From Pirellulales bacterium (GTDB lineage Bacteria > Planctomycetota > Planctomycetia > Pirellulales > JAICIG01), in the NCBI GenBank assembly GCA_035533075.1, contig DATLUO010000193.1, positions 1 through 64,000 of the forward strand: a stretch of DNA of 64,000 bases. The letters are read 5' to 3'. Numbering within the stretch: position 1 is the first letter of the stretch; every line of letters starts with the position of its first letter. The translations under genes were made by a program, and so were the position numbers. The notes under the pieces are model-generated. The model ran no database searches and had not been told where the DNA came from. It worked only from the letters and a program-made list of their open reading frames with translations. This document shows, in pieces, positions 2,778 through 23,146 of the stretch.

Positions 2778-3389
2778 TTAGAGATCGGCCGCCCCCTTCT
2801 CCGTGACCTTGGTGTTCCAAACTGAGAGATAATCGAGTTCTTTCAGGGCCACGAGGTGTTTCAGTCCCGCGTCGCTCACCTGCGTTTCGTCGAGGCTGAG
2901 CGTGCGGAGCCACGTCATTTTGGCAAGATGCGCGAGCCCCGCGTCAGTGACGTGGTCTCGCCACAAAGAGACCGACCGCAACTTCGGCAGCTTGGCGAGC
3001 GTTTCCAGGCAGGCGTCGGAAATAGCCGCGCGGTCCAGACGTAGCGACTCGAGATCCTTGAGCGCGGCAAGCTTGCCGACGCCGAGGTCGCTGATCCGCG
3101 TGCTCGAAAGAGAAAGCGACTTGAGTCGCGGCGACTGTGCGATGTAAATGGCTCCCTCGTCGCCCACGCTGGTGCCGTCGAGGCAGAGGTTTTCCAGGCT
3201 CGTGGCGCCGGCGAGCGCCGCAAGGTCGGCGTCAACCACCCGCGGATGGTCGCGTGCGTCGATTTCGGCCGAGTCGCCCGCCTGGACCTCATCGACCGCG
3301 GTACGAAATAGCTCGTGATCGGTGGGCCGGTGGCAGCCCGCGATCGCCGCGAGTATGAAGAGCAACGCTGGCAAACATCTCTTGCACAT
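2778..3389 (-). CDS. LRR lipoprotein
   Basis: A 203-residue protein that opens with a lipoprotein signal ending in AIAGC, so it is probably lipidated at Cys19 and attached to a membrane. The rest is a run of about six leucine-rich repeats of the bacterial type (pattern LxxLxLxxTxVSDxGLxxL, about 24 residues each), predicted to form a short solenoid for protein binding. Its start lies 4 bp after the stop of the GT39 gene upstream in transcription order. The same pairing, with the same 4-bp gap, recurs at 13.09 kb, where this gene is truncated. A close relative with a related N-terminus stands at 25.8 kb. The binding partner is unknown; the fixed pairing with GT39 suggests a role at the cell surface. 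Confidence 0.8.
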   Translation of the reverse strand: MCKRCLPALLFILAAIAGCHRPTDHELFRTAVDEVQAGDSAEIDARDHPRVVDADLAALAGATSLENLCLDGTSVGDEGAIYIAQSPRLKSLSLSSTRISDLGVGKLAALKDLESLRLDRAAISDACLETLAKLPKLRSVSLWRDHVTDAGLAHLAKMTWLRTLSLDETQVSDAGLKHLVALKELDYLSVWNTKVTEKGAADL

Positions 3390-3393
3390 CGCT

Positions 3394-5499
3394 TTAGCCT
3401 CGCTCTTGATTCGCTGGCTGGGGCGAATCCGTGAGTTCGGGGAGGCCGAGACGGCGCCTCACCCGATTCACTTCGGGCAGCTCCAGGTGATAGATATAGA
3501 TCGAGTAGCCGGCTCTCGCGACCGGCTCGAAGTGCTGAAAATAGGTGAGGTATGGGCGATCCATGTATGATTTATCGCCTTGGCCGTCGGGGATGTGATA
3601 CTTGTATCCATGCAGCATCATCACGCTCACGGCATACCAGCCAGGAAGCGGGCCATTTTCCGCGCGGGAGGTTGGTGAGGGCTCGCGCGGTTCTCCCCCC
3701 TCGTTCTCCGGATGAACCGGTCCGTGCGGCGGGAGCGAGAATTCGATTCCTGCGGCGCGCGGGTCAAAATAGCCGAAGTAGGCCAGTCCTAGCGGACGGG
3801 CCTCCGTGCGCTCGCCGAGCCATGTCTTAAGGTACAGGAGATCCTGACCCCAATCGAGATTGCTGTCGAGCATGTGCCAGCGGCCCCCCTGCGGACCGCC
3901 AACGAGCTCATTGAAGTACGAAAGCGAGTGCGGATAATACCAAAGGCTACTGCCGATCGACCAAGCCAGGGCCAGTCCCGCAGCCACCTTCTGTAGGGGA
4001 CGGACTCGGTGCCGTTCCGGAGATACGCGGCCTCCGTGACGTTCCGCCGATTCCGGTAGAGAACGGACTCTGTGCCGTTCCGTGGCATCGGCAAACAACC
4101 GCCCCAACCTGCCGATCCAAATAAACACGAACGGAAAGATCGGCAGCACGTAGCGCAGGTGATGATTGAAGCCGGTCTGCGAACTGACCAGAACGAGAAT
4201 GACGGCCGCCGGCAGAAGCAAGACGAATTCGTCTCGCCCGGTCGCGCCGCCAATCGTCGACGTCTCGCTCGGCGAGATGTTCGCCGTCCTCATCACGCGG
4301 AGCGTGATGCCCATGCTGGCCGCTATGAGAAACAGCAGCCAAGTTCCCAGCGGCACTTTGATCGCCAAGCCATACAGGTAATAGTACCACCAGCCACCAT
4401 GCCGCCATTCGCCGCGCAGGTAAGATGGATAGCCGCGCTCAAAGTCGCTTTTCTGCTGGTCAATGCCGCGAACGTAGTTTGCCGGTAGAGGCACCCTCAG
4501 CCCCGCCAGGGCCGTTCTCGCGAAGCGGTTTCGCCGCCCCGAATTACGCCCGGCCAGATCGGGCGCGCCGCCCAGTGACGTGCTGAGGAAGTCATAGTCC
4601 CCTAACGGCTGTAGCGAACCTTCGAATACGTAACCGAGGTTGAGGACGTACAGGCCCAGCGCGGCCATCAGCACGAGTTGGGCGGCTTGTCGTAGGCCAG
4701 CCTTTCCAGCCCGACGCCCCTCGCTCGTGACCTCCGCTAGGTCGCGCTTGTCAATCTGACGCTTTTCGAGCGCTGCCGACACGCTGTCAAGCTGGAAAGC
4801 CTGACCTACGCTCTTGCTAGCTCTGGCGACGCGCCAAAACAGCCAAGCTAATGGAAAAAGAGCGTACAGGATGAGGAACGTCGACTTCGCCAGCTCGGCT
4901 GCCCCGAGCGCGATTCCCGTCGTGACCGCCCGCGGCCAGCTCGGGGCGCGCAGCCATTTCCAAAACAGGTACCAACAGAGCACGCCCATTGATGTAGCTC
5001 CCACATCGGGCGTAATCATCTGCGCGTGGGCGAGGACATTCGGACAAAAGCACCATAACGCCAGCGCCAACAATCCGCCCACCGGACTGTACAGCTCTCG
5101 GGCCCAGCGATAGCAAAGGCAACCCCCGAGCACGCTAAAAGGAATGCAAGCCCAGCGGGCAATGGTGAATAGCCAGAACGATCGCACCCCGTTGGCGGAG
5201 ATGAACCGTTCTCCACACTGAAACTCTCCGCGCGCGCCGGGCGAAAGGGAGTAGGCGCTCCAGTCCGATCGCGGGCGCATCAGCGCCACAGGCCTGGTGG
5301 CCACCAACCTCACGAGCGGCGGATTGACGCGGTAGAGGTCGAAACGGCCGAAGTGCCAATGGCTGAGGCCCGCGGCCATGTGACCGACCTCGTCGATCGA
5401 CGGGCTATGCTTCGTCGCCGCCCAAGTCAAAAGAGCGGCATGAACGCTTAACAAGCAAGTGGCAACAAGGCCCGGTCGTCGTAACAGTTTCGCGATCAT
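3394..5499 (-). CDS. GT39-family membrane glycosyltransferase, copy 1
   Basis: About 701 residues with many membrane helices. The first external loop holds HSPSIDEVGH (the acidic GT-C motif) and YRVNPPLVR, and the soluble C-terminal part ends with the conserved segment AGYSIYIYHLELPEVNRVRR. It probably transfers a sugar from a polyprenyl-phosphate donor. The ATG at 5499 is supported by the copy at 13.1-15.2 kb, which starts MIAK at the equivalent place; sequence upstream of it is a palindromic repeat. Compared with the third paralogue (17.3-19.1 kb), two stretches are extra, about residues 230-269 and 471-502. Each is a translated copy of a palindromic repeat, and both keep the frame. The gene ends 4 bp before the LRR lipoprotein gene. 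Confidence 0.85.
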   Translation of the reverse strand: MIAKLLRRPGLVATCLLSVHAALLTWAATKHSPSIDEVGHMAAGLSHWHFGRFDLYRVNPPLVRLVATRPVALMRPRSDWSAYSLSPGARGEFQCGERFISANGVRSFWLFTIARWACIPFSVLGGCLCYRWARELYSPVGGLLALALWCFCPNVLAHAQMITPDVGATSMGVLCWYLFWKWLRAPSWPRAVTTGIALGAAELAKSTFLILYALFPLAWLFWRVARASKSVGQAFQLDSVSAALEKRQIDKRDLAEVTSEGRRAGKAGLRQAAQLVLMAALGLYVLNLGYVFEGSLQPLGDYDFLSTSLGGAPDLAGRNSGRRNRFARTALAGLRVPLPANYVRGIDQQKSDFERGYPSYLRGEWRHGGWWYYYLYGLAIKVPLGTWLLFLIAASMGITLRVMRTANISPSETSTIGGATGRDEFVLLLPAAVILVLVSSQTGFNHHLRYVLPIFPFVFIWIGRLGRLFADATERHRVRSLPESAERHGGRVSPERHRVRPLQKVAAGLALAWSIGSSLWYYPHSLSYFNELVGGPQGGRWHMLDSNLDWGQDLLYLKTWLGERTEARPLGLAYFGYFDPRAAGIEFSLPPHGPVHPENEGGEPREPSPTSRAENGPLPGWYAVSVMMLHGYKYHIPDGQGDKSYMDRPYLTYFQHFEPVARAGYSIYIYHLELPEVNRVRRRLGLPELTDSPQPANQERG
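3993..4085. repeat. palindromic repeat family C, inside GT39 copy 1
   Basis: Two imperfect copies of a unit reading ACGGACTC..GTGCCGTTCC on the plus strand lie within the coding sequence. They translate in frame as ERHRVRSLP and ERHRVRPLQ. The matching place in GT39 copy 2 (13696-13787) carries the same element. The third paralogue lacks it. Confidence 0.75.
4692..4809. repeat. palindromic repeat family A, inside GT39 copy 1
   Basis: Inverted arms of about 24 bp (4692-4715 and 4786-4809) share the core CTTTCCAGC. On the coding strand the element is read in frame, starting VGQAFQLD and ending near AGKAGLRQ. The same family occurs in GT39 copy 2 and, outside genes, at 30545-30645. Confidence 0.8.
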
Positions 5500-5508
5500 T
5501 GGGTACAA

Positions 5509-5585
5509 GGAGGATGGCCTTCCCAGGCCGTCGCATTGTTCTTTCTTCTGGCTGTCAGTGGGACGGCCTGGGAAGGTCATCCTCC
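5509..5585. repeat. palindromic repeat family B, copy 1
   Basis: The arms 5509-5532 and 5562-5585 (core GGATGGCCTTCCCAGGCCG) are inverted copies separated by about 29 bp. The element sits just upstream of the GT39 start at 5499. An almost identical element occupies the same place upstream of GT39 copy 2 (15170-15245), so it was carried along in a segmental duplication. Confidence 0.8.
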
Positions 5586-5604
5586 GCCGACCGAGCCCTT
5601 ATCC

Positions 5605-5745
5605 GCCCCACTTCCGCCAGCGCTATAATGTCCTCATGGCATCAACGCCATCGCACAGAAGGATTTTCTTGTCTTGCGCCGGGCCGCGCGGACAGTATCC
5701 GACCGGAACCTCCGCGATGTGCAACCCCATGCGGCACGCTCGGAC
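5605..5745 (-). pseudogene. truncated GT2 glycosyltransferase (C-terminal fragment)
   Basis: This stretch aligns by eye with the last part of the intact GT2 gene at 15256-16113. Both contain the block encoding AEVPVGYCPRG and the following lysine/arginine-rich tail, in the same position relative to the family B repeat and GT39. Similarity stops near 5745, and no catalytic N-terminal part is present. It is a decayed leftover of a duplicated GT2-GT39-LRR module. From here to 5993 nothing else was recognised. Confidence 0.75.
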
Positions 5746-5993
5746 CACTTCGTGCGCGTCGGCGTCTGCTAAATGCACTGCTCATATGAAATCATGGAAA
5801 GGCTGACGGGATTATCGGGATGCTCCACCACTTCCAAGCAAGCAACACGTTCACCTCTACCGAACCGGCGATTCTTGTTCGCCTATTTTAGGAGCCTCTT
5901 TTGCGATTGCAAGGGATGGCCAGAGAAACCAAGGAACCGTGACACGAACCACTCGACGGACTGGGTGCTCTGGGCAAGGGCGAAGCTCGGCGG

Positions 5994-6662
5994 TTAACTG
6001 TTTAGCTCGTTGTACCACAGGAACACCAGGGTGCCTCCTATTATGCCCGTGATTCCGATACACGCCTCCGCTCCCGCCAGACCCGCAATTGCCTGGCGCG
6101 AGTTCAGATCGATTGCGAAAACCGGCGCAATGAGAATCACGATCATTTGCACGAGAATCGCGATGAACGCCGGGAGGCCGGTGGTGGGCATGAAACTTGA
6201 GAAAAACCAGGACACTCCGAACACCATCAGGCCTGCCGCGATAAGCGCCGGATGTGGGACCTGCGCGATTACTGGGGCGGAACCGTTGCTGGCGGGCGTA
6301 AGCGAAACCGCCACTCCAGCGGCCAGGAGGTTTCCTGACCAGACGCAGACAAGCAAGCCGGCAGCGACGATGAACTTGCTCAGCGCAATCGCGAACCGTG
6401 TCGGGGGCAGATAGGCTAAGAATCGCGCGGAACCATCGTTCCGCTCGCCGGACAACGCGCTGCCGCCCGCGAAGGCCGCGCTGACTAGCGAGAGACCCGA
6501 ACTTGCCGCGGCGGACAGCGACCATGAATCGCGCAACGGATAAGGCGCGCCTTTGACCAGCCAGGTAATAACCGACACGAGATAGGGCATCGCCATCAGA
6601 GCAAGCGCAAGGCAGATGACGTAGGTCATTAATCGCAAATCCTTCCACAGTAGCGCTCTCAT
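5994..6662 (-). CDS. ABC transporter permease (ABC-2 type)
   Basis: A 222-residue protein with about six hydrophobic helices and the opening MRALLWKDLRLM, the short cytoplasmic start typical of ABC-2 permeases. The conserved part includes SGERNDGSARFLAYLP, which matches the ERxxGTxxxLxxLP region of this family. Its start overlaps the stop of the ATPase gene by 4 bp, the usual translational coupling of the two subunits. It would form the membrane channel for the ATPase encoded at 6659-7570. It is the last gene of a six-gene operon that also encodes a Cys-rich secreted protein and a redox membrane protein. The substrate is unknown; export of the operon's own product is possible but unproven. 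Confidence 0.85.
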   Translation of the reverse strand: MRALLWKDLRLMTYVICLALALMAMPYLVSVITWLVKGAPYPLRDSWSLSAAASSGLSLVSAAFAGGSALSGERNDGSARFLAYLPPTRFAIALSKFIVAAGLLVCVWSGNLLAAGVAVSLTPASNGSAPVIAQVPHPALIAAGLMVFGVSWFFSSFMPTTGLPAFIAILVQMIVILIAPVFAIDLNSRQAIAGLAGAEACIGITGIIGGTLVFLWYNELNS

Positions 6663-7570
6663 CGCCCCACCCTGCCGCGCGCGTAAGCCAGAAAAATGTC
6701 TTCCAGACTGATCGCTTGCTCATCGACGCGCTCACAGCGATTCGCCTGCCGAACTTCGTCGAGCGTCGCGGACGTGACGTCGCGAGCGACAACAACCCAC
6801 TCACGATCGACGCCGCGCTGCCAAATGGAATTCCTTGGGGGGACGAACGGCCCCGACTCCGCGGCGAGCCGAACATGTATGCGTCTTGTACGACCGAGCA
6901 GATCCGCCACGCGGCCCGATATCGCAAGTCGCCCCGCGATCATGAAGCCGACTTCGTCGGCCGTCCGTTCGATATCGCTGACGTTATGACTCGACAGCAC
7001 GACCGTTCGTTCACGGAGTTGCGGCAGCGTCTTGAGAGCGTCGAGGAATTGCCGGCGAGTCAGCGGGTCAAGTCCGTTGGTCGGCTCGTCGAGCAACAGC
7101 AAAGCGGGCTCGTGCGCGAGGGCCAGCAGAAGCGCGAGTTTGGCCAGCATGCCATGCGACAGGTGCTTGACTCGCTTTGCCGCATCCAATCCCAACGACG
7201 AGCAAAGCTCGTTTGCGAGATCGAAGTTCCACGTGGGGTAAAAGGCGCTGGTAAAACGAATTACCTCGCGCACGCGCATCCACGGATAAATAAAATGCCG
7301 CTCGGGAACGTATCCGATCCGCGCGCGAAGTTCCGCGCTACGCCGCGCGACATCGCATCCCAAGACGACGACCTTCCCGCTCGTGGGCATGATGAGCCCT
7401 GCGAACAACTTTAGGGCGGTCGACTTTCCAGCACCGTTTGAACCGAGCAAACCGAATATTCGCCCCGCGCGCAGCGAGAAGTCAAGATGGTCGACGGCTA
7501 GTGTGTTGCCAAACGCCTTTGTCAGTGCGCTGGCTGCGATCGCTACCTCAGGCATGTCGCCTTGGCTCAT
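6659..7570 (-). CDS. ABC transporter ATP-binding protein
   Basis: A 303-residue nucleotide-binding subunit. The Walker A loop GSNGAGKST lies at residues 43-51, the signature is LSHGM, and the Walker B is LLLLDEPTNGLDPLT, followed by a switch histidine in SSHNVSD. The C-terminal 80 residues form the variable extension of the CcmA/NatA-like group that partners ABC-2 permeases. The start ATG at 7570 lies 4 bp after the stop of the DUF1573 gene, and its end overlaps the permease start. It powers the transporter by ATP hydrolysis on the cytoplasmic side. All catalytic motifs are intact, so the transporter should be active. Confidence 0.92.
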   Translation of the reverse strand: MSQGDMPEVAIAASALTKAFGNTLAVDHLDFSLRAGRIFGLLGSNGAGKSTALKLFAGLIMPTSGKVVVLGCDVARRSAELRARIGYVPERHFIYPWMRVREVIRFTSAFYPTWNFDLANELCSSLGLDAAKRVKHLSHGMLAKLALLLALAHEPALLLLDEPTNGLDPLTRRQFLDALKTLPQLRERTVVLSSHNVSDIERTADEVGFMIAGRLAISGRVADLLGRTRRIHVRLAAESGPFVPPRNSIWQRGVDREWVVVARDVTSATLDEVRQANRCERVDEQAISLEDIFLAYARGRVGR

Positions 7571-7574
7571 GTCA

Positions 7575-8702
7575 TCACAGGATTATCACCGGAACTACCA
7601 AGCGACGCTTGCCGCCGTTGCGGAGGCTGGCGTTGACGACGACGCTACTGCGATGCACTCCGGCGTGCTTCGCGTGCGAGACGCATGTAACCACCAATTT
7701 CGGCCGGTCGGTACCGTTGTCGACGACCGTCCACTCGATGCCGCCCTCCGCGCATTCTACGGCTCCGATGTCCACTGCTGCATCGCCTAACGCGGAAAAT
7801 ACCACTTCGCGGCTAGCCATGTGGTCGCTCGGCCCCCAATACAGAACACTGGGCATGGCCTCGATTTCGTTGGCGACCTCACCGCTTGCCACGAGCGAAA
7901 ATTCCTGCGGCGGCCCGTCGCTGCGGGCGACGCTAATTCTGATTCGCGTGGAAAATTGCCGTTCTCCCTCGGCCAGCTTATTTGGATCGACCGTGGTATC
8001 ACCGACAAACACGAAATCATCCGCGCTTCGCCGCGGAGCATCGCTCAACTCCACGACGATGTGCGGCTGCTCTCCGTCGCATGCCGCAGACAGTACGGGA
8101 ACTGCTCCGTCGATCGAAGGCAGGACAATACGAAACGCCGCCCTCGCCGCGGCACCCCCTCGCCGCAACGAGTCGAACCGGATGGCCGATGGCAGTACGC
8201 CATGGGCCGGGTCGATTTTCGCTGCGAGAGAAACGGCAAAGTCTTGTCGAATCGGCTCTTTGACTTCTCTCTCCGCGACGAGGGCAATCGAGGCCACTGG
8301 CGCCGCTTGCATAGCCGACGTGTCGAGCGCCGCCAGCAGCGTGGCGCGTTCGGCGGGTTCGAGCGTGTCCTTGTCCAGCTTGGCCGACGTGCAAGTACAG
8401 GAACTTTCGGCAATGCGAATCTTGACCGGAGTGGCTGAGACGTTGGTGACTGTGAATTGATGCGTGGCGACTAATCCGCTAGGCACCATTCCGAACTCGT
8501 ACCGCGGTTCAGATACGCTCACGAGTTTCGCCGACTCAGCCTGGCGACTATTCGCGGCGGCTCCGCCAGCCTGGTCCGCCGCTGGCGACTCCTCTCTGAG
8601 GCGGAACAAGGCGGACAAGAGCGAACACAGGACTCCCAACGCGAGTAGCACAAACGCGGCGTTTTTGATGTTGTGTCGGGATAGAATGTCGCGCGCACCC
8701 AT
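7575..8702 (-). CDS. DUF1573 membrane-anchored protein
   Basis: A 375-residue protein with one N-terminal membrane helix (about residues 14-33). A DUF1573 domain follows: it begins YEFGMVPSG, continues HQFTVTN, and has the cysteine motif SSCTCTSAKL, all hallmarks of this Ig-like beta-sandwich family. The C-terminal half appears to hold further beta domains. DUF1573 proteins are outside the cytoplasm and are common in Planctomycetota and Bacteroidota; their biochemical role is unsettled. It lies 4 bp before the ABC ATPase and 16 bp after the LolA-like gene. Two more DUF1573 genes occur in the parallel run at 21.6 and 23.9 kb, again next to a Cys-rich gene. Confidence 0.85.
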   Translation of the reverse strand: MGARDILSRHNIKNAAFVLLALGVLCSLLSALFRLREESPAADQAGGAAANSRQAESAKLVSVSEPRYEFGMVPSGLVATHQFTVTNVSATPVKIRIAESSCTCTSAKLDKDTLEPAERATLLAALDTSAMQAAPVASIALVAEREVKEPIRQDFAVSLAAKIDPAHGVLPSAIRFDSLRRGGAAARAAFRIVLPSIDGAVPVLSAACDGEQPHIVVELSDAPRRSADDFVFVGDTTVDPNKLAEGERQFSTRIRISVARSDGPPQEFSLVASGEVANEIEAMPSVLYWGPSDHMASREVVFSALGDAAVDIGAVECAEGGIEWTVVDNGTDRPKLVVTCVSHAKHAGVHRSSVVVNASLRNGGKRRLVVPVIIL

Positions 8703-8718
8703 GATCGGCTCCGGCGTT

Positions 8719-9747
8719 TCAGTCTAGGGTTCGTTGCCTGTGTCGTCGTCGTCGCGCTGCCCACCAAGCAATAATGAGCGCGGCTACGACGACATTAACC
8801 AAAACAAACCAGCGCCGGACAGCACTTATGGGCTCGGGCCCTGCGCTGGGAACAGTAAATATCTTGTCAATCACAAGGTCGTTGACCGTCGTTCCAGGCG
8901 GAAAGTCGATCACAAATGTGCCGTTCTCGAAGACTGGATTGATGCGCGTCCGCTTGACGTCGGCAGTGACGACAAGTTTAACTCGATGTTCCGCCCGCGT
9001 TGTTATTGCCTCCAGTTTTGTCGGCAGCCATACAGACTGACCCTGCCCGTCGTCGAACTGGTACGCCTCGAGAATGCGCGCGTCCACGGCCGGCGTGTCA
9101 CCCTTGCCGTACAGCAGGCTTCTCACCGGCAGTGCGCCTCGTTCCAGGTCAAGCCAGACGCTTGCATAGCGATGCGGCACGCCCGACCCATCCGTAAAAG
9201 TGGCGTCGACAACATGGCACGGCCGGTCGCCGACTTGCTCCGGATCCGACCGCAATTGTGCGTACTTCAGGAGGTTCACCAAGCTGGCGTCGTCCGTGCC
9301 ACGCCCGTCCGGACGCGGCGGGTGCATCAGGGCGCCGGTCAGCACGCGTTCGGTGCCAAGAGGATTGATGGGCGGTTTCTTGGGCTGCGAGATTGCCCCT
9401 TGAAGAATCGATGGGTTGTGAAAGGTTGCCGTGCTGTCCGAAAGGGCGTATTCCAAAGCGAACATCTTACCGTTCGCCTGCGGGTCCGCGGAATCCTTCC
9501 ACCAGCGATAATTGCCGGTCGCAATGTCGAATCGCATTCGGCCCCGAAGCAGCGGAACTAACAAAGGAAAAGTTCCGTCGAGCAGCTCTTGGTGTTCTTC
9601 GTAGGTAACATCAATGGCGTGGACGCGCTCTCGAGCGCTCTTCGCGATTCGCACGATGTCTTCGAGCGCAATTCCATCGCTGGCGACGGCGCCCCGCGGC
9701 ACAAAGGCCGCGGCCAGGCAGATGAGACGGCAGACACGCGTATTCAT
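8719..9747 (-). CDS. secreted LolA-like protein with C-terminal anchor
   Basis: A 342-residue protein with a signal peptide ending near AVASDG, a central part with alternating beta strands (RMRFDIATGNYRWW, YALSDSTATFHN) that recalls the LolA/LolB-like fold of outer-membrane lipoprotein carriers, and one membrane helix close to the C-terminus followed by the tail ARRRRHRQR. The fold is an inference from the pattern, not a recognised family hit. A protein of the same plan, with signal peptide, similar central domain, terminal helix and basic tail, is encoded at 19127-20323 in the parallel run. The C-terminal anchor faces the cytoplasm with its basic tail. It lies between the DUF1573 and Cys-rich genes with gaps of 16 and 21 bp. 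Confidence 0.65.
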   Translation of the reverse strand: MNTRVCRLICLAAAFVPRGAVASDGIALEDIVRIAKSARERVHAIDVTYEEHQELLDGTFPLLVPLLRGRMRFDIATGNYRWWKDSADPQANGKMFALEYALSDSTATFHNPSILQGAISQPKKPPINPLGTERVLTGALMHPPRPDGRGTDDASLVNLLKYAQLRSDPEQVGDRPCHVVDATFTDGSGVPHRYASVWLDLERGALPVRSLLYGKGDTPAVDARILEAYQFDDGQGQSVWLPTKLEAITTRAEHRVKLVVTADVKRTRINPVFENGTFVIDFPPGTTVNDLVIDKIFTVPSAGPEPISAVRRWFVLVNVVVAALIIAWWAARRRRHRQRTLD

Positions 9748-9768
9748 CGGGGTACATACTCCGCCGTG

Positions 9769-10188
9769 TCAGGGGCATGTCGCTGGAAACGATTTACCCA
9801 AAGCGCAGGCCGCGGTGTTACAATAAAGTGGGGTGCATACGCACCATAGAGAGCAACCGCACGTCGTGTTGACAAAGCCGTTGAAGCAGGCCCTGTAAGT
9901 GGAACTACAGGTCGCGTACTTGACACCCCCGATGCATTTCGTCGTCATACTGGGGTCCGGGCCGCAAGCGTTCCATGAGCAAATGCCGCAAAGGCTTGGC
10001 GGTGCCGCCGAGCAACCAAAGGCGGGCACCGTCCCGCAACCGGCGCTCACCCTCGCAGAACAATCCCAGATGAGCGGCGGAGCGGCGTAGACGGTCCGCG
10101 CGAACCAAAGCATGTTCATTGCACAGAACACCGCGGAAATGAGCAGGAACGACACCACCGAAATCCACGATCGAACGACCATCGCCAT
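9769..10188 (-). CDS. cysteine-rich secreted protein, 16 Cys
   Basis: A 139-residue protein. It starts at the ATG at 10188, which follows AAAGGAGCG at good spacing; an earlier in-frame TTG would overlap the upstream gene and was rejected. Residues 1-36 form a signal peptide ending near VYAAPP. The mature part of about 100 residues has 16 cysteines, an even number, with no free hydrophobic core, so it is probably held by up to eight disulfides. Motifs include CGICSWNACG and CGCSLWCVC. It belongs to no family I recognise. The gene directly upstream encodes a MauE-thioredoxin fusion that could form or repair these disulfides. A second Cys-rich protein with a similar plan is at 23401-23892. It could be a surface or secreted peptide, or a precursor needing cleavage. 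Confidence 0.7.
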   Translation of the reverse strand: MAMVVRSWISVVSFLLISAVFCAMNMLWFARTVYAAPPLIWDCSARVSAGCGTVPAFGCSAAPPSLCGICSWNACGPDPSMTTKCIGGVKYATCSSTYRACFNGFVNTTCGCSLWCVCTPLYCNTAACALGKSFPATCP

Positions 10189-10202
10189 CGCACACGCTCC
10201 TT

Positions 10203-11333
10203 TCAAATCGATTTCTCTGGAAACACAAACGAGACGCAGTCCCCTGACATATCAGTAGACGGTGATTTCACCTCCGACTCCGCGATCGCGCAGGCGGCGG
10301 TGGGTCCGCCTAGAAGTTCCGCCGCGCGCGGTAGCCGCCCAAACCAAGAGGCTTGGACAATCCCTTCCTGAACGAAAACAGCGATTGGCGTGTCAATTTG
10401 ATAACCGCCGGCTCGAGATCGCAGTCGACACGTGATGAACGGTGCGCGCCGCTCCGCAGCCGAGCGCCCGTCAGGCGACGGAATCTCGATCGCGGCAATG
10501 CGAATCGGATTGCCGTTAGCGCCCAATTCGCGCGACAGATGGTCGCAGTCCTGAAGTACCCCGCCGCAACGGCGGCAATCGGGTCGGTAGACCACGGCAA
10601 GCCAGGAACCCCGCCCCAGCACTTCGCCTCCTTCGAGATACCGCATCAGAAGAAAAGGTTGCCCCTTCAGCCCGGCGGGATCGTAGCAAATCGGCCCCCC
10701 ACCCCAATTTGCAGCGTAGCCGTCCGAACCGTTCTCATCCGAAACGATGTGCCTTGGTGCGCTAAATACGCCCGCAACGGCCACAATACCGGGTAACGTG
10801 ATAGCGAGGGACCAAGCCAAGCACCGCATTGAGCGAAAACGTGGCCTCGTCGACTCCCCTAGCGAACACGACACAACCGCCGCCGCGTCGAGCGCAAACG
10901 TTACCCAAGGGCTTATGGCGAACTCGCCAAAGCAACCGCAAGACGTTTCCCCGGCGAGCCCCTTCCAGAGCGAGAGGGTCGACAGGATAAGAAACCATAA
11001 AGTGGCGGTATAGCGCGCCCGAGGTCCAGCTTGGCCGAATACCAGGCAAATGGCCACGGCGACGTGAATCTCGATGACGGCGACAGTAAGCCAGTGCGAT
11101 CCGAAAAAACGCGCGGCGCGGCCAGGATAGGCCATCAACTGGTACGTTTTGGTTACCGCTGCGAACATAAGCACGCTCACCCAGAGCCAGCGCACCATAG
11201 GGTGCGAACAGACCGACACTGCGTGACGATACAGACGACCGAGGCGAACTTGTCCAACCATCGAACGAACCGTGCTAACAACGCGATGAACCGGCAACCG
11301 GCGTGTAATGTGGCGGACTCGTCTTGAGTGCAT
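10203..11333 (-). CDS. MauE-like redox membrane protein fused to a thioredoxin-like domain
   Basis: About 376 residues. The N-terminal half has four or five membrane helices and the motif SCGCFGEF (Cys132 and Cys134), the hallmark of MauE/DoxX-type redox-associated membrane proteins. The C-terminal half, outside the membrane, looks thioredoxin-like with a CxxC site in PDCRRC (Cys253 and Cys256). Such fusions are thought to pass electrons or disulfides across the membrane, as DsbB or VKOR partners do. It is the first gene of the six-gene operon, and the 16-cysteine secreted protein begins 14 bp after it, which suggests that protein is its client. The start is uncertain: ATGs at 11333 and 11261 are both possible and neither has a strong ribosome site. 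Confidence 0.8.
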   Translation of the reverse strand: MHSRRVRHITRRLPVHRVVSTVRSMVGQVRLGRLYRHAVSVCSHPMVRWLWVSVLMFAAVTKTYQLMAYPGRAARFFGSHWLTVAVIEIHVAVAICLVFGQAGPRARYTATLWFLILSTLSLWKGLAGETSCGCFGEFAISPWVTFALDAAAVVSCSLGESTRPRFRSMRCLAWSLAITLPGIVAVAGVFSAPRHIVSDENGSDGYAANWGGGPICYDPAGLKGQPFLLMRYLEGGEVLGRGSWLAVVYRPDCRRCGGVLQDCDHLSRELGANGNPIRIAAIEIPSPDGRSAAERRAPFITCRLRSRAGGYQIDTPIAVFVQEGIVQASWFGRLPRAAELLGGPTAACAIAESEVKSPSTDMSGDCVSFVFPEKSI

Positions 11334-11599: not shown

Positions 11600-11706
11600 A
11601 ACGAGATCGCGCCGCACACGCTTGACTTGCCGCGTTTCGAGGTGATAAATGTAACTTGAATAGCCCGCCGTTGCCACCGGCTTGACCTGCTGCAAATAAT
11701 TAACGT
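11600..11706 (-). pseudogene. GT39 C-terminal fragment
   Basis: Read on the minus strand, this stretch gives a sequence similar to the conserved last segment of the GT39 proteins: VATAGYSSYIYHLE, then VKRVRRDL, against AGYSIYIYHLE and VNRVRRRL. Nothing upstream encodes the membrane part. It is a leftover of a further GT39 copy between the redox operon and the LRR gene at 11713. The remaining intergenic DNA (11334-11599) shows only the hairpin above. Confidence 0.7.
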
Positions 11707-11712
11707 GAAATC

Positions 11713-12738
11713 ATGACCAATAATCGCCGTCTGCCGCTGATCGTCGTCGCCACGCTTTTGCCTATCGCGGCCCTCTCTTACGCCTTCTTCCTCCATTCCC
11801 GGGGAGGAACGCCCGATTCAAAGCCAAGCATCCCCGCGGCCAAGCCGATGGCACAGGTCGTCGCCCGCGTCCAGGCGCTCGGCGGGACGCTAAGAATCGA
11901 TGGCGACGCCGTCGAAATCGACCTGACTCAGACCGCAGTCAGCGACGAAGATCTCGCGCTGTTCAGTTCACTTCGCGGAGTGAGGCGGCTTGTTCTCGAG
12001 AGGACGCACATCACCGACTCTGGCCTGGCGCACATCGAGCAAATGCGCGACCTCTGGGCCTTAGATCTCATGGAGACCCATGTCAGCGCCGCCGGGCTGG
12101 CGCATCTAGAAGCTTTGCCGAAGCTGGAGGTGCTCTATCTTGCCAGCGCGCCCGTTAACGACTACCCGGGCATCAACGACGCCGGCGCTCGTGAGATAGC
12201 GCGGTGCAAGGGGCTGCGCGTGCTTTACCTGAACCGAGGCGCTGTGACCGATGAAGGGATCGATCATCTCAGCGATCTACCACGTTTGGAAACGCTGGTT
12301 CTTCAAGAGGCAAAGTTGACCGGCAGGGCGCTGGAGAGCTTCGGCCGCCTGCCCAAATTGCGGGAACTGGTACTGAACGGCGTGCCCCTCACCGATGCCG
12401 ACCTGCGGCACATTGGCGCGCTGCGGCGTCTCAATACGCTCAATCTCGATTATACGAAATGCACGAATTCGGGGCTCGCGAATTTGATGCAGTTGCGCGA
12501 ACTGACCGGCCTAAGCATCGCATATACATCAATTGGTGATGAGGGACTCTCTCACTTGGCGCGGCTTGAGAAGCTCGACTCCCTCTGCCTAATGGGGACG
12601 CGCATCAGCGACAAAGGCATCGCCGTACTCGGGCGAATGTCTTCGCTAAAAGAGCTGTATCTTGAAGATACAAAGTTGACAGTGCAAGGCATCGCCTCAC
12701 TTCGTGAGGCTCTCCCGAAGACGAAGATCACGCCCTGA
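11713..12738 (+). CDS. membrane-anchored leucine-rich repeat protein
   Basis: A 341-residue protein with one N-terminal hydrophobic helix (about residues 8-26) that serves as a signal anchor and has no lipobox, followed by about ten bacterial-type leucine-rich repeats (LxxLxLxxTxIxDxGLxxL) to the C-terminus. The predicted solenoid lies outside the cytoplasm. It is the only plus-strand gene in the first 25 kb and stands between fragments of duplicated GT39 and LRR genes. It is longer than the LRR lipoproteins in this window and its signal is different. The role is unknown; binding to other proteins is the likely function. Confidence 0.8.
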   Translation: MTNNRRLPLIVVATLLPIAALSYAFFLHSRGGTPDSKPSIPAAKPMAQVVARVQALGGTLRIDGDAVEIDLTQTAVSDEDLALFSSLRGVRRLVLERTHITDSGLAHIEQMRDLWALDLMETHVSAAGLAHLEALPKLEVLYLASAPVNDYPGINDAGAREIARCKGLRVLYLNRGAVTDEGIDHLSDLPRLETLVLQEAKLTGRALESFGRLPKLRELVLNGVPLTDADLRHIGALRRLNTLNLDYTKCTNSGLANLMQLRELTGLSIAYTSIGDEGLSHLARLEKLDSLCLMGTRISDKGIAVLGRMSSLKELYLEDTKLTVQGIASLREALPKTKITP

Positions 12739-12750: not shown

Positions 12751-13092
12751 TCACATAGAATACAACGGTCTGGCCATCGCGGATCGCTCTATGTCAACGG
12801 CGACGAACTGGCCGCCGAGGCCGATCGTGTCACCCGCCGGGCGCTCGCACTTGCGGCGGCCAAGGCCCACGCTGGTGCCGTCGAGGCAGAGGGTTTCCAG
12901 GCTCGTGGCGCCGGCGAGTGCGGCAAGATCGGCATGGACGACGCGCGAATGGTCGCGTGCGTCGATTTTGGCCGAATCGCCCGCCTGGACTTCGTCGATG
13001 GCGGAACGGAACAGCTCGCCGTCCGTCGCGCGGTGGCAGCCCGCGATCAGCGCCACGGCCAGCAGCGCAATGCACCGACTCACCCGGTCCAT
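12751..13092 (-). pseudogene. truncated LRR lipoprotein, second copy
   Basis: The first 75 or so residues (MDRVSRCIALLAVALIAGC, then TDGELFRSAIDEVQAGDS and the first repeat up to LCLDGTSVG) match the intact LRR lipoprotein at 2778-3389. After about position 12872 the sequence is unrelated and runs to a stop at 12751, so five of the six repeats are missing. The lipobox is intact and the start lies 4 bp after the GT39 copy 2 stop, as in the first module. It could still make a short lipoprotein, but it is best regarded as a truncated copy. Confidence 0.75.
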
Positions 13093-13096
13093 TGAC

Positions 13097-15160
13097 TCAA
13101 CCTCCTCCTCCCACGTTGTGCGCTGGCGGTGCGTCAAGTTCGCGCAGGCCCAGCTCGCGCCGCACCCGATTCACCTCCGGCAATTCGAGGTGATAGATGT
13201 ATATCGAGTAGCCTGCCCTCGCCACCGGCTCGAAGCGCTGAAAATAGGTGAAATACGGCTGCTCAGTGTAAAACTTTCCTCCCTTTCCATCGGGGATTGC
13301 GTATTGGTATCCGTGCAGCATTGTTACGCTCACGGCATACCAGCCGGGGAGCGGACCAATTTCCGCGCTAGAGGTTGGCGACGGCTGGCGCCGTTCGCCG
13401 CCCTCGTTATCCAGATGCACCGGACCATGCGGCGGGAGCGAGAATTCAATTCCCGCGGCGCGCGGGTCAAAATAGCCGAAGTAGGCCAGCCCTAGCGGGC
13501 GGGCCTCTGGGTGCTCGCCTAGCCATGTCTTAAGGTACAGAAGATCCTGGCCCCAATCGAGATTGCTGTCGAGCATGTGCCAGCGGCCGCCCAGCGGGCC
13601 GCCAACGAGTTCGTTGAAGTACGAAAGCGAATGCGGGTAATACCAGAGGCTGCTGCCGATCGACCACGCCAGGGCCAGTCCCACAGCCATCATCTGTACG
13701 GAACGGACTCCGTGCCGTTCCTTAGATACGCGGCCTTCGTGACGTTCCGCCGTTTCCTGTAGGGAGCGGAGTCTGTGCCGTTCCGTGGGATCGGCAAACA
13801 ACCGCCCTAACCTGCCAATCCAAATAAACACGAACGGAAAGATCGGCAGTACATAGCGCAGGTGATGATTGAAACCCGTCTGCGAGCTGACCAGGGCGAA
13901 AATGACGGCCGCCGGCAAGAGCAAGACGAATTCGTCTCGCCAAGTCGCACCGCCGATCGTGCCCGACGCGCCCCGCGAGATGTCGGCCACCGCCCCCATC
14001 ACGCGGAGCGTGATGCCTACGGTGACCGCCATGAGGAACAGCAGCCAAGTTCCCAGCGGCACTTTGATCGCCAGGCCGTACAAGTAGTAGTACCACCAGC
14101 CGCCGTGGCGCCATTCGCCGTGCAGATAGGACGGAAAGCCTTGCTCGAAATCGTACTTCTGGTGATCGATGCCCAACACGTAGTTTGCCGGTAAAGGCAC
14201 GCGCAGCCCTGCCAGACCGGTTCCGGAGAACCTGTTCCGGCGGGCGGAACCCGGCACGCCCATGTCGCGCGGTCCGCCCAGCGCCGCGCTGAGGAAGTGG
14301 AACTCTCCTAATGGCTGAAGCGGGCCTTCGAATGCGTAGCCGAGGTTGAGCACGTAAAGGCCCAGCGCGGCCATCAGCACGAGCTGCCCCGCTTGCCGTA
14401 GGCCAGGCTTTCCAGCCTGACGCTCCTCGAGCGTCGCCAGCGAACCGTCAGGCTGGAAAGCCTGACCTGCATTCTTGCTCGCGCGCGCGAGCCGCCAAAA
14501 CAGCCAGGCCAGCGGCCAGACCGCGTACAGGACCAGAAAGGTCGCTTTCGTCAGCTCCGCCAGGCCAAGGGCGATGCCCGTGGTGAACGTCCGCGGCCAA
14601 CTCGGGGCGCGGATCCATTTCCAGAACAGGTAGCAAGAAAGCACGCCCAGTGACGTCGCTCCCACGTCGGGCGTGATCATCTGCCCGTGGGCAAGGAGAT
14701 TCGGACAAAAGCACCATAATGCCACCGCCAGCAATCCGCCCGCCGGACCGTACAGCTCGCCGGCCCAACGGTAGCATACATAGCCGCCCAGCAGACTAAA
14801 CGGGATGCATGCCCAGCGAGCCACGGTGAACAGCCAGAACGACCACTCGCCGTTGGCGGCAATGAATTGTTCTCCACACTCGAATTCCCCCCGGGCGCCG
14901 CGCAAGAGGGAATAGGCGCTCCAGTCCGATCGCGGGCGCGTCAGCGCTACAGGCATGGTGGCCACTAACCGCACTAGCGGTGGATTGACCCGGTAGAGGT
15001 CGAAACGGCCGAAGTGCCAATGGCTCAGCCCCGCGGCCATGTGTCCGACTTCGTCGATCGACGGGCTATGCCGCGTCGCCGCCCACGCCAACAGCGCGGC
15101 GTGAAGGCTGAGCAAGAGCGTCGCAACAAGGCCCGGTCGTTCTGATAGTTTCGCGATCAT
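13097..15160 (-). CDS. GT39-family membrane glycosyltransferase, copy 2
   Basis: A 687-residue multi-helix membrane protein, nearly collinear with copy 1 at 3394-5499, including HSPSIDEVGH in the first loop, the YRVNPPLVR motif and the C-terminal AGYSIYIYHLELPEVNRVRR. It probably transfers a sugar from a polyprenyl-phosphate donor outside the membrane. It starts at ATG 15160 (MIAKLSERPG). It carries the same two in-frame repeat insertions as copy 1, at residues about 230-254 (VGQAFQPD-type element, 45 bp shorter here) and 458-488 (ERHRLRSLQ-type). The insertions therefore came before the duplication and then changed length in multiples of three. It is followed at 4 bp by the truncated LRR gene and preceded by a family B repeat and a GT2 gene. 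Confidence 0.87.
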   Translation of the reverse strand: MIAKLSERPGLVATLLLSLHAALLAWAATRHSPSIDEVGHMAAGLSHWHFGRFDLYRVNPPLVRLVATMPVALTRPRSDWSAYSLLRGARGEFECGEQFIAANGEWSFWLFTVARWACIPFSLLGGYVCYRWAGELYGPAGGLLAVALWCFCPNLLAHGQMITPDVGATSLGVLSCYLFWKWIRAPSWPRTFTTGIALGLAELTKATFLVLYAVWPLAWLFWRLARASKNAGQAFQPDGSLATLEERQAGKPGLRQAGQLVLMAALGLYVLNLGYAFEGPLQPLGEFHFLSAALGGPRDMGVPGSARRNRFSGTGLAGLRVPLPANYVLGIDHQKYDFEQGFPSYLHGEWRHGGWWYYYLYGLAIKVPLGTWLLFLMAVTVGITLRVMGAVADISRGASGTIGGATWRDEFVLLLPAAVIFALVSSQTGFNHHLRYVLPIFPFVFIWIGRLGRLFADPTERHRLRSLQETAERHEGRVSKERHGVRSVQMMAVGLALAWSIGSSLWYYPHSLSYFNELVGGPLGGRWHMLDSNLDWGQDLLYLKTWLGEHPEARPLGLAYFGYFDPRAAGIEFSLPPHGPVHLDNEGGERRQPSPTSSAEIGPLPGWYAVSVTMLHGYQYAIPDGKGGKFYTEQPYFTYFQRFEPVARAGYSIYIYHLELPEVNRVRRELGLRELDAPPAHNVGGGG
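13696..13787. repeat. palindromic repeat family C, inside GT39 copy 2
   Basis: Two imperfect units with the core GGAACGGACTCCGTGCCGTT lie in the coding sequence and read in frame as ERHRLRSLQ and ERHGVRSVQ. The position matches the element at 3993-4085 in copy 1. Confidence 0.75.
14398..14470. repeat. palindromic repeat family A, inside GT39 copy 2
   Basis: The inverted arms 14398-14421 and 14447-14470 share the core GGCTTTCCAGCCTGAC. The element is in frame and encodes AGQAFQPD ... QAGKPGLRQ. It is 45 bp (15 codons) shorter than the element at the same place in copy 1. Confidence 0.85.
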
Positions 15161-15169
15161 TGGCTACGA

Positions 15170-15245
15170 GGAGGATGGCCTTCCCAGGCCGTCGCGTCGT
15201 TCTTTCCCCTGGTTGTCATTGGACGGCCTGGGAAGGCCATCCTCC
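15170..15245. repeat. palindromic repeat family B, copy 2
   Basis: The arms 15170-15193 and 15222-15245 are inverted copies with core GGCCTTCCCAGGCCGTC. The element lies between the GT2 gene and the GT39 gene it probably shares a transcript with, and is nearly identical to 5509-5585. Confidence 0.85.
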
Positions 15246-15255
15246 GGTCGAGTCC

Positions 15256-16113
15256 CTATCTGCTCCACTTCCGCCAGCGCCATAACGTCTTCAGCGCTTC
15301 GATCCCGTCGCGCAGCCGGATTTTCTTGCCCTCCGCGGCGCCGCGCGGACAGTATCCGACCGGAACCTCCGCAATGTGCAACCCCATGCGGCACGCTTTG
15401 GCGGTCACCTCTGGGCAAAACTCAAACCTCTCGCACTCCAGACGCATCGCCCGGAGCGTCTCCGTGCGGAACAGCTTGTAGCACGTGGCCTCATCGGTGA
15501 GCCGCGCGCCGTAGAGCCAACGGGTCGCCGCGTTCAGCGCGCAGACCCCGATACGAAACGTAGTCCACGGCGGGGTAGCCGGACTCGTGAGAGTTCGGGC
15601 GGCGGTAAGCAACGTCGTTTCCGGGTCCGCCTCGCCCGAATTCTCACGAATCGCGGTACGCGAGCGAAGGTATCGCGATCCGTACACCACATCCGCCTCG
15701 CCGGCCAAAAGCGGCTCCAGCAGGCACAGGTAGTCGCGAGGGTCATACTCCAAGTCGGCGTCTTGAACGAGCGTGTATTTACCCTGCGCCTGTTCGAGGC
15801 CCGTCCGGATTGCGGCGCCCTTGCCGGAGTTGCGCGAATGGGCCAACAATTCGACGACGGGATGCCCCTCCCAGCGCTCGAGAACCCCTGTTGTCCCGTC
15901 GGTCGAGCCGTCGTCCACAACGAGCACCTGCATATCGAGCGGCACATCGACGACACTGCGCAGCAACTCGTCGACCGTCGCCGCTTCGTTGTACACCGGA
16001 ACGATGACCGTCAACAGCGCACCGTAGCCATCTCGCTCCGCGAGATGTTGAGGCTCCGCTTCGGCGTGCGCGGTCGCCGCCCTAGGCACGATCCGCTCGA
16101 TCAATCCCGCCAT
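15256..16113 (-). CDS. GT2 family glycosyltransferase (polyprenyl-phosphate type)
   Basis: A 285-residue GT-A fold enzyme of family 2. The nucleotide-binding start is TVIVPVYNEAATVDELL, followed by VVDDGSTDGT and the catalytic metal-binding segment QDADLEYDP. The overall plan resembles dolichyl-phosphate mannose or glucose synthases that make polyprenyl-phosphate sugars. This fits its place beside GT39 proteins, which use such donors: GT2 would load the lipid on the cytoplasmic side and GT39 would use it outside. There are no membrane helices. A C-terminal fragment of a second copy is at 5605-5745. The exact sugar is unknown. Confidence 0.87.
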   Translation of the reverse strand: MAGLIERIVPRAATAHAEAEPQHLAERDGYGALLTVIVPVYNEAATVDELLRSVVDVPLDMQVLVVDDGSTDGTTGVLERWEGHPVVELLAHSRNSGKGAAIRTGLEQAQGKYTLVQDADLEYDPRDYLCLLEPLLAGEADVVYGSRYLRSRTAIRENSGEADPETTLLTAARTLTSPATPPWTTFRIGVCALNAATRWLYGARLTDEATCYKLFRTETLRAMRLECERFEFCPEVTAKACRMGLHIAEVPVGYCPRGAAEGKKIRLRDGIEALKTLWRWRKWSR

Positions 16114-16212
16114 CGTCCACCCTCCCTAATTCGTCAAACCCCGCGTTCGAAAGCCCAAGACCAAAGCCCCAAGACCGACAGGCCGGAAATCCAAAATCGC
16201 AAATCCAAGATC

Positions 16213-17220
16213 CTACTTCAGCCAGCCGTCATCAATCACCTTGCCGTCCTGTCGGTTTCCCAGCCGCCGATGCACTTCGGGATCAATGCCGTAGCTGATC
16301 GTCCGCACTGAGCCGTCGCAAAACGCGAAATTGCAGCCGTGTGGGTGCGGGCTGCCGAAGCGGCCGAAGTCGTAGTTGCCCGCCGCGTCGTTGAGCGGCG
16401 TCCAGCCCTTTGGCGTCCAGCGGGCGATGTCAAAGTCGTCGCCCGAATACATGCTCTGGTCGTCGCCGATATCGCCGCCGCTCGAATAATCGCGAACGTT
16501 CTTTTCACCGACCAGATAAGTGTAGCTCTTACCGTCCTTGATATGCGCGAACGTGACTTCGCTCCGCAGAAAGCAAACACCGGTGAACTCGCTCTTGGGT
16601 TTGGGCCATTGGTAGTTCGGGTCGTCGCCCTGGGCCAGGGTGAGCGGTCCCTCGCCCACGTCGAGAAAGACGTCGCCTGCATTGACCGCGTAGTCGGTCT
16701 TGGCGGCCATATTTACAGGCGCCGTGTTGAACGGCGGCCAAGGCTGCGGATACAAGCCGAGCGGCCGCCGTGTAGGACAGTTGAAAAGCGAAAGCGGAAA
16801 TGAAAGCAAACGAGCCAAAGACTTCTTCTGGTCGCCCTGTGATTCGCCGGCGCCGAGGCGACGCAAATCGCCGCGCTCGAGGTAGGGGAGCGTGGCGTAG
16901 ATCCATCCGCCCGGCTGACGCAGGCCTGTGCCGCGGTCAGGGTCGCCGACCCAGAGGTAGCCCCAGCCGTTTGATGGGAGCCGGCTGAACGCTGATTCGT
17001 GGTTGAATAGCGCCAGCCCTTGCTGCCGCAGATGGTCTTGGCATTGCATCCGCCTGCCGCTCTCACGGGATGCCTGCACCGCCGGCAGCAAAAGCGACAT
17101 CAGCATGCCGATAATGGAAATCACAACAAGAACCTCCATCAGAGTAAATCCACTGCCGTGCCCGCGGACACGCCGCCGCGCAGACCCAGCACTATCAACT
17201 TCCAGGCACATTTTAAGCAT
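16213..17220 (-). CDS. DUF1559 pseudopilin-like protein
   Basis: About 335 residues. It carries a type IV prepilin-like signal G|FTLMEVLVVISIIGML, where cleavage before the Phe leaves a hydrophobic helix, then a conserved NHESAFSRLPSNGW segment and, near the C-terminus, the H-x9-DG pattern (PHPHGCNFAFCDGSVR). These are the two signatures of the DUF1559 family, which is greatly expanded in Planctomycetota and thought to form pseudopilus-like fibres or secretion components. The ATG at 17220 is preferred over a TTG at 17259 that overlaps the GT39 stop. Its 3' flank (about 16150-16212) carries an AAATCC-rich simple repeat. Confidence 0.88.
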   Translation of the reverse strand: MLKMCLEVDSAGSARRRVRGHGSGFTLMEVLVVISIIGMLMSLLLPAVQASRESGRRMQCQDHLRQQGLALFNHESAFSRLPSNGWGYLWVGDPDRGTGLRQPGGWIYATLPYLERGDLRRLGAGESQGDQKKSLARLLSFPLSLFNCPTRRPLGLYPQPWPPFNTAPVNMAAKTDYAVNAGDVFLDVGEGPLTLAQGDDPNYQWPKPKSEFTGVCFLRSEVTFAHIKDGKSYTYLVGEKNVRDYSSGGDIGDDQSMYSGDDFDIARWTPKGWTPLNDAAGNYDFGRFGSPHPHGCNFAFCDGSVRTISYGIDPEVHRRLGNRQDGKVIDDGWLK

Positions 17221-17255
17221 CCGAACCGCCTCGGCTGATTGGCAACCTTTCTGGG

Positions 17256-20323: not shown

Positions 20324-20359
20324 AAACGCCTCATTTGGTAGATTGATCCGAACTGTCTT

Positions 20360-21550: not shown

Positions 21551-21631
21551 TGGCAAATCCTCGGGGTGCGTGAGGCTATAGGACGCGTAATTTCTGGAAG
21601 ATCCAAGGCTAGAGGACTGTGATGGGCGCTT

Positions 21632-22432
21632 TTACGGTGGCGGGCCGAGCGCATAGGCGTCCAAGCGAAGCGTATGTTCCGCGGTGCCCAAGCGATATCG
21701 AATTGCAAATTCACCTTTTCCTGGGCGCCAGTCACCCTGCGATTGCAATGGCACAGTTACCGAACGGCGGTAGTACTGGCCGTCACTAATTGGCGGATCA
21801 ACCTCTGAACGGGAGATTACTGCGGCGACCCATGGGAAAGGCGACTCCACAGAAAGTAGCTGGAGGTCTGCGTCGCGAACCACGGACATCAGATATAATC
21901 TGAGCGGCGGCGGTTGAAGCGAGTTGGAAACGCCCCGGATTACGATTGGTCCGGATATCGAGTCAAGCCCTTCGAAGAAACCGGCGAGCGTAAACTTGTG
22001 CGTTTCTGGCGCGTTGTCATCGCCCGGTGTCGCCAAGGGCGCGGCGGTTACAATGAGAAATTCTGCCACGTGGCCCGAGTGCTTGACGATCTCCGTCGAC
22101 AATCCTAGCGTGAGTGTGCCATCAGCCCATGGCTCAAGGACTTCCGGCGGAGCGAGGCGTGAATTCACGCAACCGCAAGTCGCTCGGCCGCGCGAAAGGC
22201 GAATTGGATGGTCCGTGACGTTGCGAAATCGAAACTGGTGCTCTGCCCTGATCCCGCGCGTGAGAACGCCGAAATCATTTGTCGCCGGGTCCAGTTCTTC
22301 GAGGAGGAACTTCGGCGGCGCGGAAGGTGCGAGCGATGGCCGGCCAACAAGGCTACGAAACATGTCGGAAAATAAGAACGCCCCGGCGCTAGTTGAAAGG
22401 ATAAGCGAAACAATTATGATAATGCGCGACAT
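21632..22432 (-). CDS. DUF1573 membrane-anchored protein, second
   Basis: A 266-residue protein with a hydrophobic N-terminus (MSRIIIIVSLILSTSAGAF). A DUF1573 domain follows with the familiar steps NDFGVLTRG, HQFRFRNVTD and the cysteine motif RATCGCVNSRLAPPE. A second beta domain fills the C-terminal half. It lies 23 bp after the C39-like protease gene. It is shorter than the 375-residue DUF1573 protein at 7575 and longer than the one at 23917. Location outside the cytoplasm is likely; the function of the family is unknown. Confidence 0.82.
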   Translation of the reverse strand: MSRIIIIVSLILSTSAGAFLFSDMFRSLVGRPSLAPSAPPKFLLEELDPATNDFGVLTRGIRAEHQFRFRNVTDHPIRLSRGRATCGCVNSRLAPPEVLEPWADGTLTLGLSTEIVKHSGHVAEFLIVTAAPLATPGDDNAPETHKFTLAGFFEGLDSISGPIVIRGVSNSLQPPPLRLYLMSVVRDADLQLLSVESPFPWVAAVISRSEVDPPISDGQYYRRSVTVPLQSQGDWRPGKGEFAIRYRLGTAEHTLRLDAYALGPPP

Positions 22433-22455
22433 CGGACGGACGAGAATAAAATGTG

Positions 22456-23112: not shown

Positions 23113-23146
23113 CGGCTGCACTCCGGCGACTCAGCGTCCGTACGGT

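Follow-up and report, generated by a model that had tools for sequence, protein, structure and literature searches.

A candidate maturation system for hypervariable, disulfide-rich secreted proteins in planctomycetes

We examined the first 64,000 nucleotides (the window) of contig DATLUO010000193.1 from a Pirellulales bacterium (assembly GCA_035533075.1), within which six minus-strand open reading frames (ORFs) at 5994-11333 lie where the original prediction, made from the letters alone, had placed them. In order, these encode a MauE membrane domain fused to a thioredoxin domain (MauE-Trx), a small cysteine-rich secreted protein, an anchored LolA-like protein, a DUF1573 protein, and the ATPase and permease of an ATP-binding cassette (ABC) transporter (Table 1). 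Given that the gaps from MauE-Trx to the permease measure only 14, 21, 16, 4, and -4 nt, the six genes are likely read as one transcript. The predicted ORFs, their spacing and overlap, and the count of 16 cysteines past the signal peptide of the secreted protein all hold.

The cysteine-rich protein has its best start at ATG 10188, immediately downstream of a ribosome-binding site (AAAGGAG). Its 139 residues include 17 cysteines, counting the one that precedes the end of the signal peptide, in a window whose long ORFs average 1.7% cysteine. There is no double-glycine site before the first cysteine, and its operon contains no C39 peptidase gene. Pfam and NCBIfam scans returned no family match for this protein, and a homologue search of 297 genomes of the order yielded weak, composition-like matches only.

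The MauE domain passes its Pfam threshold (PF07291, 28.4 bits against a cut-off of 27), as does the DUF1573 protein (PF07610, 45.2 bits against 26.1). Pfam (ABC_tran) also places the ATPase clearly among ABC proteins. An AlphaFold model of the thioredoxin domain, built on a family alignment, has ResA, DsbE, and Sco as its closest Foldseek matches (probability 1.00). All four redox cysteines of the fusion, the CxC of the MauE part and the CxxC of the thioredoxin part (C253/C256), are invariant among 18 aligned relatives, and the cis-proline, P316, is present in at least 90% of them. The LolA-like protein matches LolA weakly in Pfam (E 0.04); its AlphaFold model, likewise from a family alignment, matches many LolA structures in Foldseek, with LolA3 the best (E 2.4e-9). 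Whereas classical LolA is soluble, this family (A2) ends in a transmembrane (TM)-like segment in 20 of 20 aligned relatives. A CxC motif occurs in 59 of 63 related DUF1573 domains, and DUF1573 selenoproteins carrying UGC are known (PMC9312934, PMC13188914); this implies that the motif is redox-active, which fits a redox role.

MauE-Trx relatives occur in 18 of the order's 197 genomes, and a search of the phylum with a family profile found them in 40 of 392 genomes. We assembled a comparison set of about 120 related loci, each designated by an L-number, and their neighborhoods share recurring partners: a small secreted cysteine-rich ORF, DUF1573, an anchored LolA-like protein, a stand-alone peptidase C39, and PMT and GT2 glycosyltransferases. 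Four operon genes, those for MauE-Trx, the cysteine-rich protein, the LolA-like protein, and DUF1573, belong to this set; its C39 and PMT members lie outside the operon, in a second cluster described below. Examples of these neighborhoods are MauE - Cys14 - LolA - C39/DUF1573 - PMT (L154), Cys16 - LolA - C39 - DUF1573 (L161), Cys17 - LolA - C39 - DUF1573 - PMT (L152), and, outside the order but in the same class, MauE - Cys15 - LolA - C39/DUF1573 (L116). PMT is present in 15 of the loci examined. The genome from which the window derives holds approximately 11 clusters with a cysteine-rich ORF, on contigs C193 (two), C278, C229, C212, C91, C267, C97, C169, C173, and C191.

The set also emerged when the cysteine-rich gene was left out of the search. 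A single MauE protein found no match in named genomes; PMT, used as the seed instead, led to 11 loci in Planctomycetaceae, Planctomycetales, and Schlesneria metagenome-assembled genomes that show the same set, and seeding with the LolA family uncovered new loci that show it again.

Members of the set are repeatedly fused to one another. Such fusions join MauE to DUF1573 (L059, L062, L076, L077, L114, and L124), C39 to DUF1573 (L043, L046, L048, L051, L054, L116, L148, L149, L154, and L172), LolA to C39 (L129), and LolA to both C39 and DUF1573 (L042 and L173, the latter in a Schlesneria metagenome-assembled genome). L076 and L077 belong to the window's own genome, and a 78-aa cysteine-rich secreted ORF follows the L076 fusion. 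GT2/DUF1573 fusions (L174, 1-1221; L178, 5159-6949) tie glycosylation to the gene set. That such fusions arose independently argues strongly that the proteins concerned act together.

Co-location was assessed against random placement in 18 genomes using genome-wide gene tables. DUF1573 lies within 5 kb of MauE-Trx in 22 of 32 cases (0.47 expected) and within 5 kb of C39 in 19 of 36 (0.55 expected), and C39 lies within 6 kb of MauE in 8 of 32 (0.15 expected). These excesses of gene pairs are 30- to 50-fold; the genomes are related, and the associated probabilities are inexact. Secreted ORFs with at least 8 cysteines, on the same strand and within 1.5 kb, accompany 17 of 23 LolA-like, 12 of 30 C39, and 13 of 44 MauE genes versus 9 of 131 genes used as controls; for MauE or C39, Fisher's test gives p 2e-6. 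Co-occurrence in related genomes had been named beforehand as a test of the original prediction, and it is present. The association of the redox membrane protein and DUF1573 with cysteine-rich secreted proteins is thereby supported: these genes are found together throughout the order, with MauE/DUF1573 fusions in several genomes, and the LolA-like gene recurs as well.

We compared 47 cysteine-rich precursors, which range from 78 to 201 aa and contain 6-18 cysteines. They are hypervariable, with only four pairs similar at E < 1e-3, three of these inside one locus. A possible resemblance to NVEALA, a precursor family of Bacteroidota, is a lead only; no Pfam or NCBIfam precursor model is matched, and scans with 24 precursors returned chance-level single matches only. 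A cysteine-free stretch of at least 18 aa past the signal is found in 15 of 24 precursors with C39 nearby and in 1 of 23 without (p 3e-5; rank test p 0.002). In the C39-linked precursors it usually ends at a GG-, GA-, or AG-like site, as in SRSELAARIGG, DEALTTMLGG, KPETAKQVYGG, and NNLTEVVGG. Three loci fetched later (L212, L215, and L224) carry SIHGG, LVLGG, and ALRGG directly before the cysteine-rich part, the longer leader ends in later loci reading GEMRLVLGG, EEAASIHGG, and AEAAALRGG. The catalytic residues of C39, C66 and H145, are invariant in 19 relatives; all 19 lack a Walker A motif, and hence an ABC domain, and most carry a signal or membrane segment. Three of the 19 match the NCBIfam FapD (amyloid maturation) model, and a match to FilB (pilus) also occurs among C39 members.

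The original prediction had assigned the operon a dedicated transporter, a claim that the comparison does not support. Permease homologues occur in 2 other genomes of 197 in the order, neither with a MauE-Trx gene, and related clusters show no recurrence of the ATPase/permease pair. We therefore rejected a core role for the ABC transporter; judged by its distribution, the pair is probably a non-defining, local addition. It probably serves local self-protection or is an unrelated exporter, the former being possible because lantibiotic-protection and PSM-export families give matches to the ATPase that fall below cut-off.

The original prediction overlooked a second cluster in the window (13097-24711, minus strand), along with the C39 peptidase and glycosyltransferases. 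The genes of this cluster run in the order DUF1573, cysteine-rich protein, C39, DUF1573, a 398-aa protein, LolA-like protein, PMT, DUF1559, GT2, and PMT. The 398-aa family may be a further core part; in L051 this family and LolA-like genes adjoin MauE, cysteine-rich, and C39/DUF1573 genes. DUF1559 was considered as a set member and rejected, as it is too common across planctomycetes to be informative.

Table 1. Genes of the operon, the second cluster, and the duplicated segment
Feature	Position	Strand	Evidence or remark
Fusion of MauE membrane domain (CGCFG) and thioredoxin domain of TlpA/ResA type (CRRC, cis-Pro)	10203-11333	minus	376 aa, predicted disulfide exchanger
Cysteine-rich secreted protein, leaderless type	9769-10188	minus	sequence; position-equivalent to cysteine-rich ORFs of related clusters
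LolA-like periplasmic protein, signal sequence and C-terminal TM anchor	8719-9747	minus	recurrent family A2; model
DUF1573 Ig-like protein, CxC (SCTCT) motif	7575-8702	minus	Pfam PF07610
ATPase of ABC-2-type transporter, non-core; immunity or export role possible	6659-7570	minus	Pfam ABC_tran; not recurrent
ABC-2 permease, non-core	5994-6662	minus	Pfam just under cut-off
DUF1573 protein	23917-24711	minus	Pfam PF07610 25.2 bits, slightly below cut-off
Cysteine-rich secreted protein (163 aa, 12 Cys); leader-like SDSDAARISGA follows the signal and precedes the cysteine-rich part	23401-23892	minus	sequence
Stand-alone peptidase C39, signal sequence and C-terminal TM, without ABC domain	22456-23121	minus	Pfam PF03412 47.8 bits
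DUF1573 protein, CGC motif	21632-22432	minus	Pfam scan
398-aa protein family, without Pfam match	20360-21556	minus	recurs beside C39/LolA-like genes in L051, L129, L133, L171
LolA-like anchored protein	19127-20323	minus	family A2
PMT-type glycosyltransferase	17256-19130	minus	Pfam PMT_2 and PMT above cut-off
DUF1559 prepilin-like protein, doubtful member	16213-17259	minus	Pfam scan
GT2, polyprenyl-phosphate sugar synthase-like	15256-16113	minus	Pfam Glycos_transf_2
PMT-type glycosyltransferase	13097-15160	minus	homologue search
PMT_2-type membrane glycosyltransferase, inside duplicate of 12865-15397	3394-5580	minus	Pfam PMT_2; 81% repeat

Part of the second cluster is duplicated. A 2.6-kb segment with a PMT glycosyltransferase gene and a partial GT2 gene is present at 3162-5740 and 12865-15397 (81% identical), the former copy keeping GT2 as a remnant only (5620-5748). 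A remnant of a PMT C-terminus also lies on the minus strand directly upstream of the MauE gene (11603-11707), and the operon is therefore flanked by pieces of duplicated PMT-GT2 DNA. Beside it, on the plus strand, is a gene for a leucine-rich-repeat protein with an N-terminal membrane segment (11713-12738), and another ORF of leucine-rich-repeat type is found at 25357-26535. Elsewhere in the window are imperfect palindromic repeats of ~96 bp (41823-41919, 44925-45022, and 54064-54158; 85-90% alike) that look like a family of small repeats, mobile or structured, a 1.65-kb repeat (50241-51878 and 55072-56715; 73% identical), and a 0.4-kb repeat (49434-49845 and 54202-54604; 90% identical).

We consider it probable that the operon is one version of a secretory system by which planctomycetes mature small, hypervariable, disulfide-rich proteins for secretion. 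In the scheme we infer, the cysteine-rich protein would leave the cytoplasm by Sec via its signal peptide, and the anchored LolA-like protein would keep the unfolded chain in the periplasm. The MauE-thioredoxin fusion would then form disulfides, passing electrons to the membrane (quinone pool), with DUF1573 acting either as a further thiol partner or as a domain for docking. Where C39 is present, it would release the mature protein by cutting, on the periplasmic side, another leader of double-glycine-like type, and PMT and GT2 enzymes may O-glycosylate the product. The operon would represent the C39-less version, with a leaderless product, and the second cluster the version with C39, whose product bears a leader. 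With products this hypervariable, patchy, and multi-copy, an antagonistic or signaling (bacteriocin-like) end use appears most likely, over a conserved wall component.

Several points weigh against this proposal. Many MauE and LolA-like loci have no cysteine-rich ORF under our filter, some of them ending at contig edges, and among the new loci found with the LolA seed only 8 of 38 carry one, which indicates that the LolA family extends past this system. The cysteine number is odd in 15 of the 47 precursors. Signal peptides were assigned by a hydrophobicity rule and not by SignalP, and the leader motif rule is post hoc, having been set after the sequences were seen; a strict GG-only leader test is not significant (9/24 versus 4/24, p 0.19). 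Neither an exporter in the outer membrane nor an evident immunity gene was identified, and MauE could in principle work in the reducing direction. The proposed steps are read from genes and sequence comparison.

Planctomycetes have been described with a proteinaceous cell wall, and the cysteine-rich proteins could instead be the structural units that build a surface layer, a sheath, or a fiber, the gene set forming a Fap- or Fil-like assembly line. We regard this as unlikely: the products are nearly all unrelated between loci, distribution is patchy at the 18 of 197 genomes noted above, a single genome may encode up to ~11 different products, and no amyloid repeats were noticed, although no dedicated search for them was made. 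In its favor are the matches of some C39 members to FapD and FilB, FapD being a periplasmic C39 required for Fap secretion (PMC5557850); glycosyltransferases and DUF1559 prepilin-like neighbors would also suit surface proteins, but DUF1559 is abundant everywhere in planctomycetes.

Since the best structural matches of the thioredoxin domain include Sco and ResA/CcmG, which are cytochrome assembly proteins, the set could alternatively perform housekeeping assembly of redox or metal centers, of cytochrome or metallochaperone type, with partners that bind metals instead of forming disulfides. A housekeeping substrate is expected to be conserved, whereas the partners here are hypervariable, multi-copy, mostly even in cysteine number, and without shared metal motifs; this account, which also leaves no role for C39 and the double-glycine leaders, is quite improbable. 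That MauE, DUF1573, and the cysteine-rich gene adjoin by accident in a gene-dense region, the six genes being unrelated, is scarcely credible given the co-location statistics and repeated fusions in other genomes, even with the rearrangement evident from the duplicated fragments around the operon; it is contradicted for these three genes and LolA and may hold for the ABC pair.

If the operon does belong to a maturation system, planctomycetes possess a large, uncatalogued, hypervariable repertoire of disulfide-rich secreted proteins with its own folding and trimming line. DUF1573 would acquire a function, stand-alone periplasmic C39 peptidases would acquire candidate substrates, and the gene set would provide a genetic handle for the discovery of new disulfide-rich peptides.

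The nearest working analogue is the mau operon, in which MauE and a thioredoxin-like partner (MauD) serve a small secreted disulfide-rich protein. In one proposal, MauE forms the disulfides of the methylamine dehydrogenase beta-subunit (van der Palen 1997, as cited in PMC7794033). Here, by contrast, MauE and thioredoxin are fused, DUF1573, LolA-like, and C39 proteins are added, and the substrates are hypervariable; the genes of the two window clusters include no Pfam match to the dehydrogenase subunits MauA or MauB. The passage of PMC7794033 describing decRiPPter reports three candidate families of ribosomally synthesized and post-translationally modified peptides (RiPPs) in Streptomyces that place a mauE homologue beside precursors with at least 8 cysteines. 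These are Gram-positive, unproven candidates, and that passage makes no mention of DUF1573, C39, LolA, or PMT. With these precedents, the original statement that the components had never been described together is too strong. In the open-access literature, we found no paper joining DUF1573 to MauE or C39, nor any on C39 with VKOR in Bacteroidetes.

Like the C39 proteins of the second cluster and its relatives, FapD and FilB are stand-alone peptidases with a Sec signal and no ABC domain, and the target and recognition sequence of FapD are uncharacterised (PMC5557850). They differ in that C39 is here tied to DUF1573 and LolA by fusion or linkage, with cysteine-rich proteins bearing GG-like leaders as its likely substrates; FapF pores and FapC amyloid repeats were not noticed in the clusters, in the course of analyses aimed at neither. 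Double-glycine bacteriocins and their C39 ABC exporters (PCAT, NHLP family) share with our system a C39 peptidase and, less firmly, a leader ending in GG or GA just before the mature part. A candidate GG, GA, or AG leader is found in most C39-linked precursors, including that of the second cluster, and not in the operon's product. In contrast to the bacteriocins, the precursors here add a Sec signal and give a disulfide-rich product of ~80-200 aa, and C39, in contrast to the exporters, is without an ABC domain and on the periplasmic side. DUF1573/OS_HP2 (seleno)proteins share this domain and its CxC, which reads UGC in the selenoprotein form; here fusion links the domain to MauE, C39, and GT2. 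The gene set overlaps the mau, decRiPPter, and FapD precedents, and there is a reasonable chance that it is distinct from them. In its fullest form, which we advance tentatively, the idea is of a distinct Planctomycetota class of secreted peptide natural product or effector system defined by Sec entry, oxidation by a dedicated MauE-thioredoxin/DUF1573 pair, release from a second, double-glycine leader through an anchored periplasmic C39, and optional O-glycosylation, with up to about ten clusters per genome making unrelated products.

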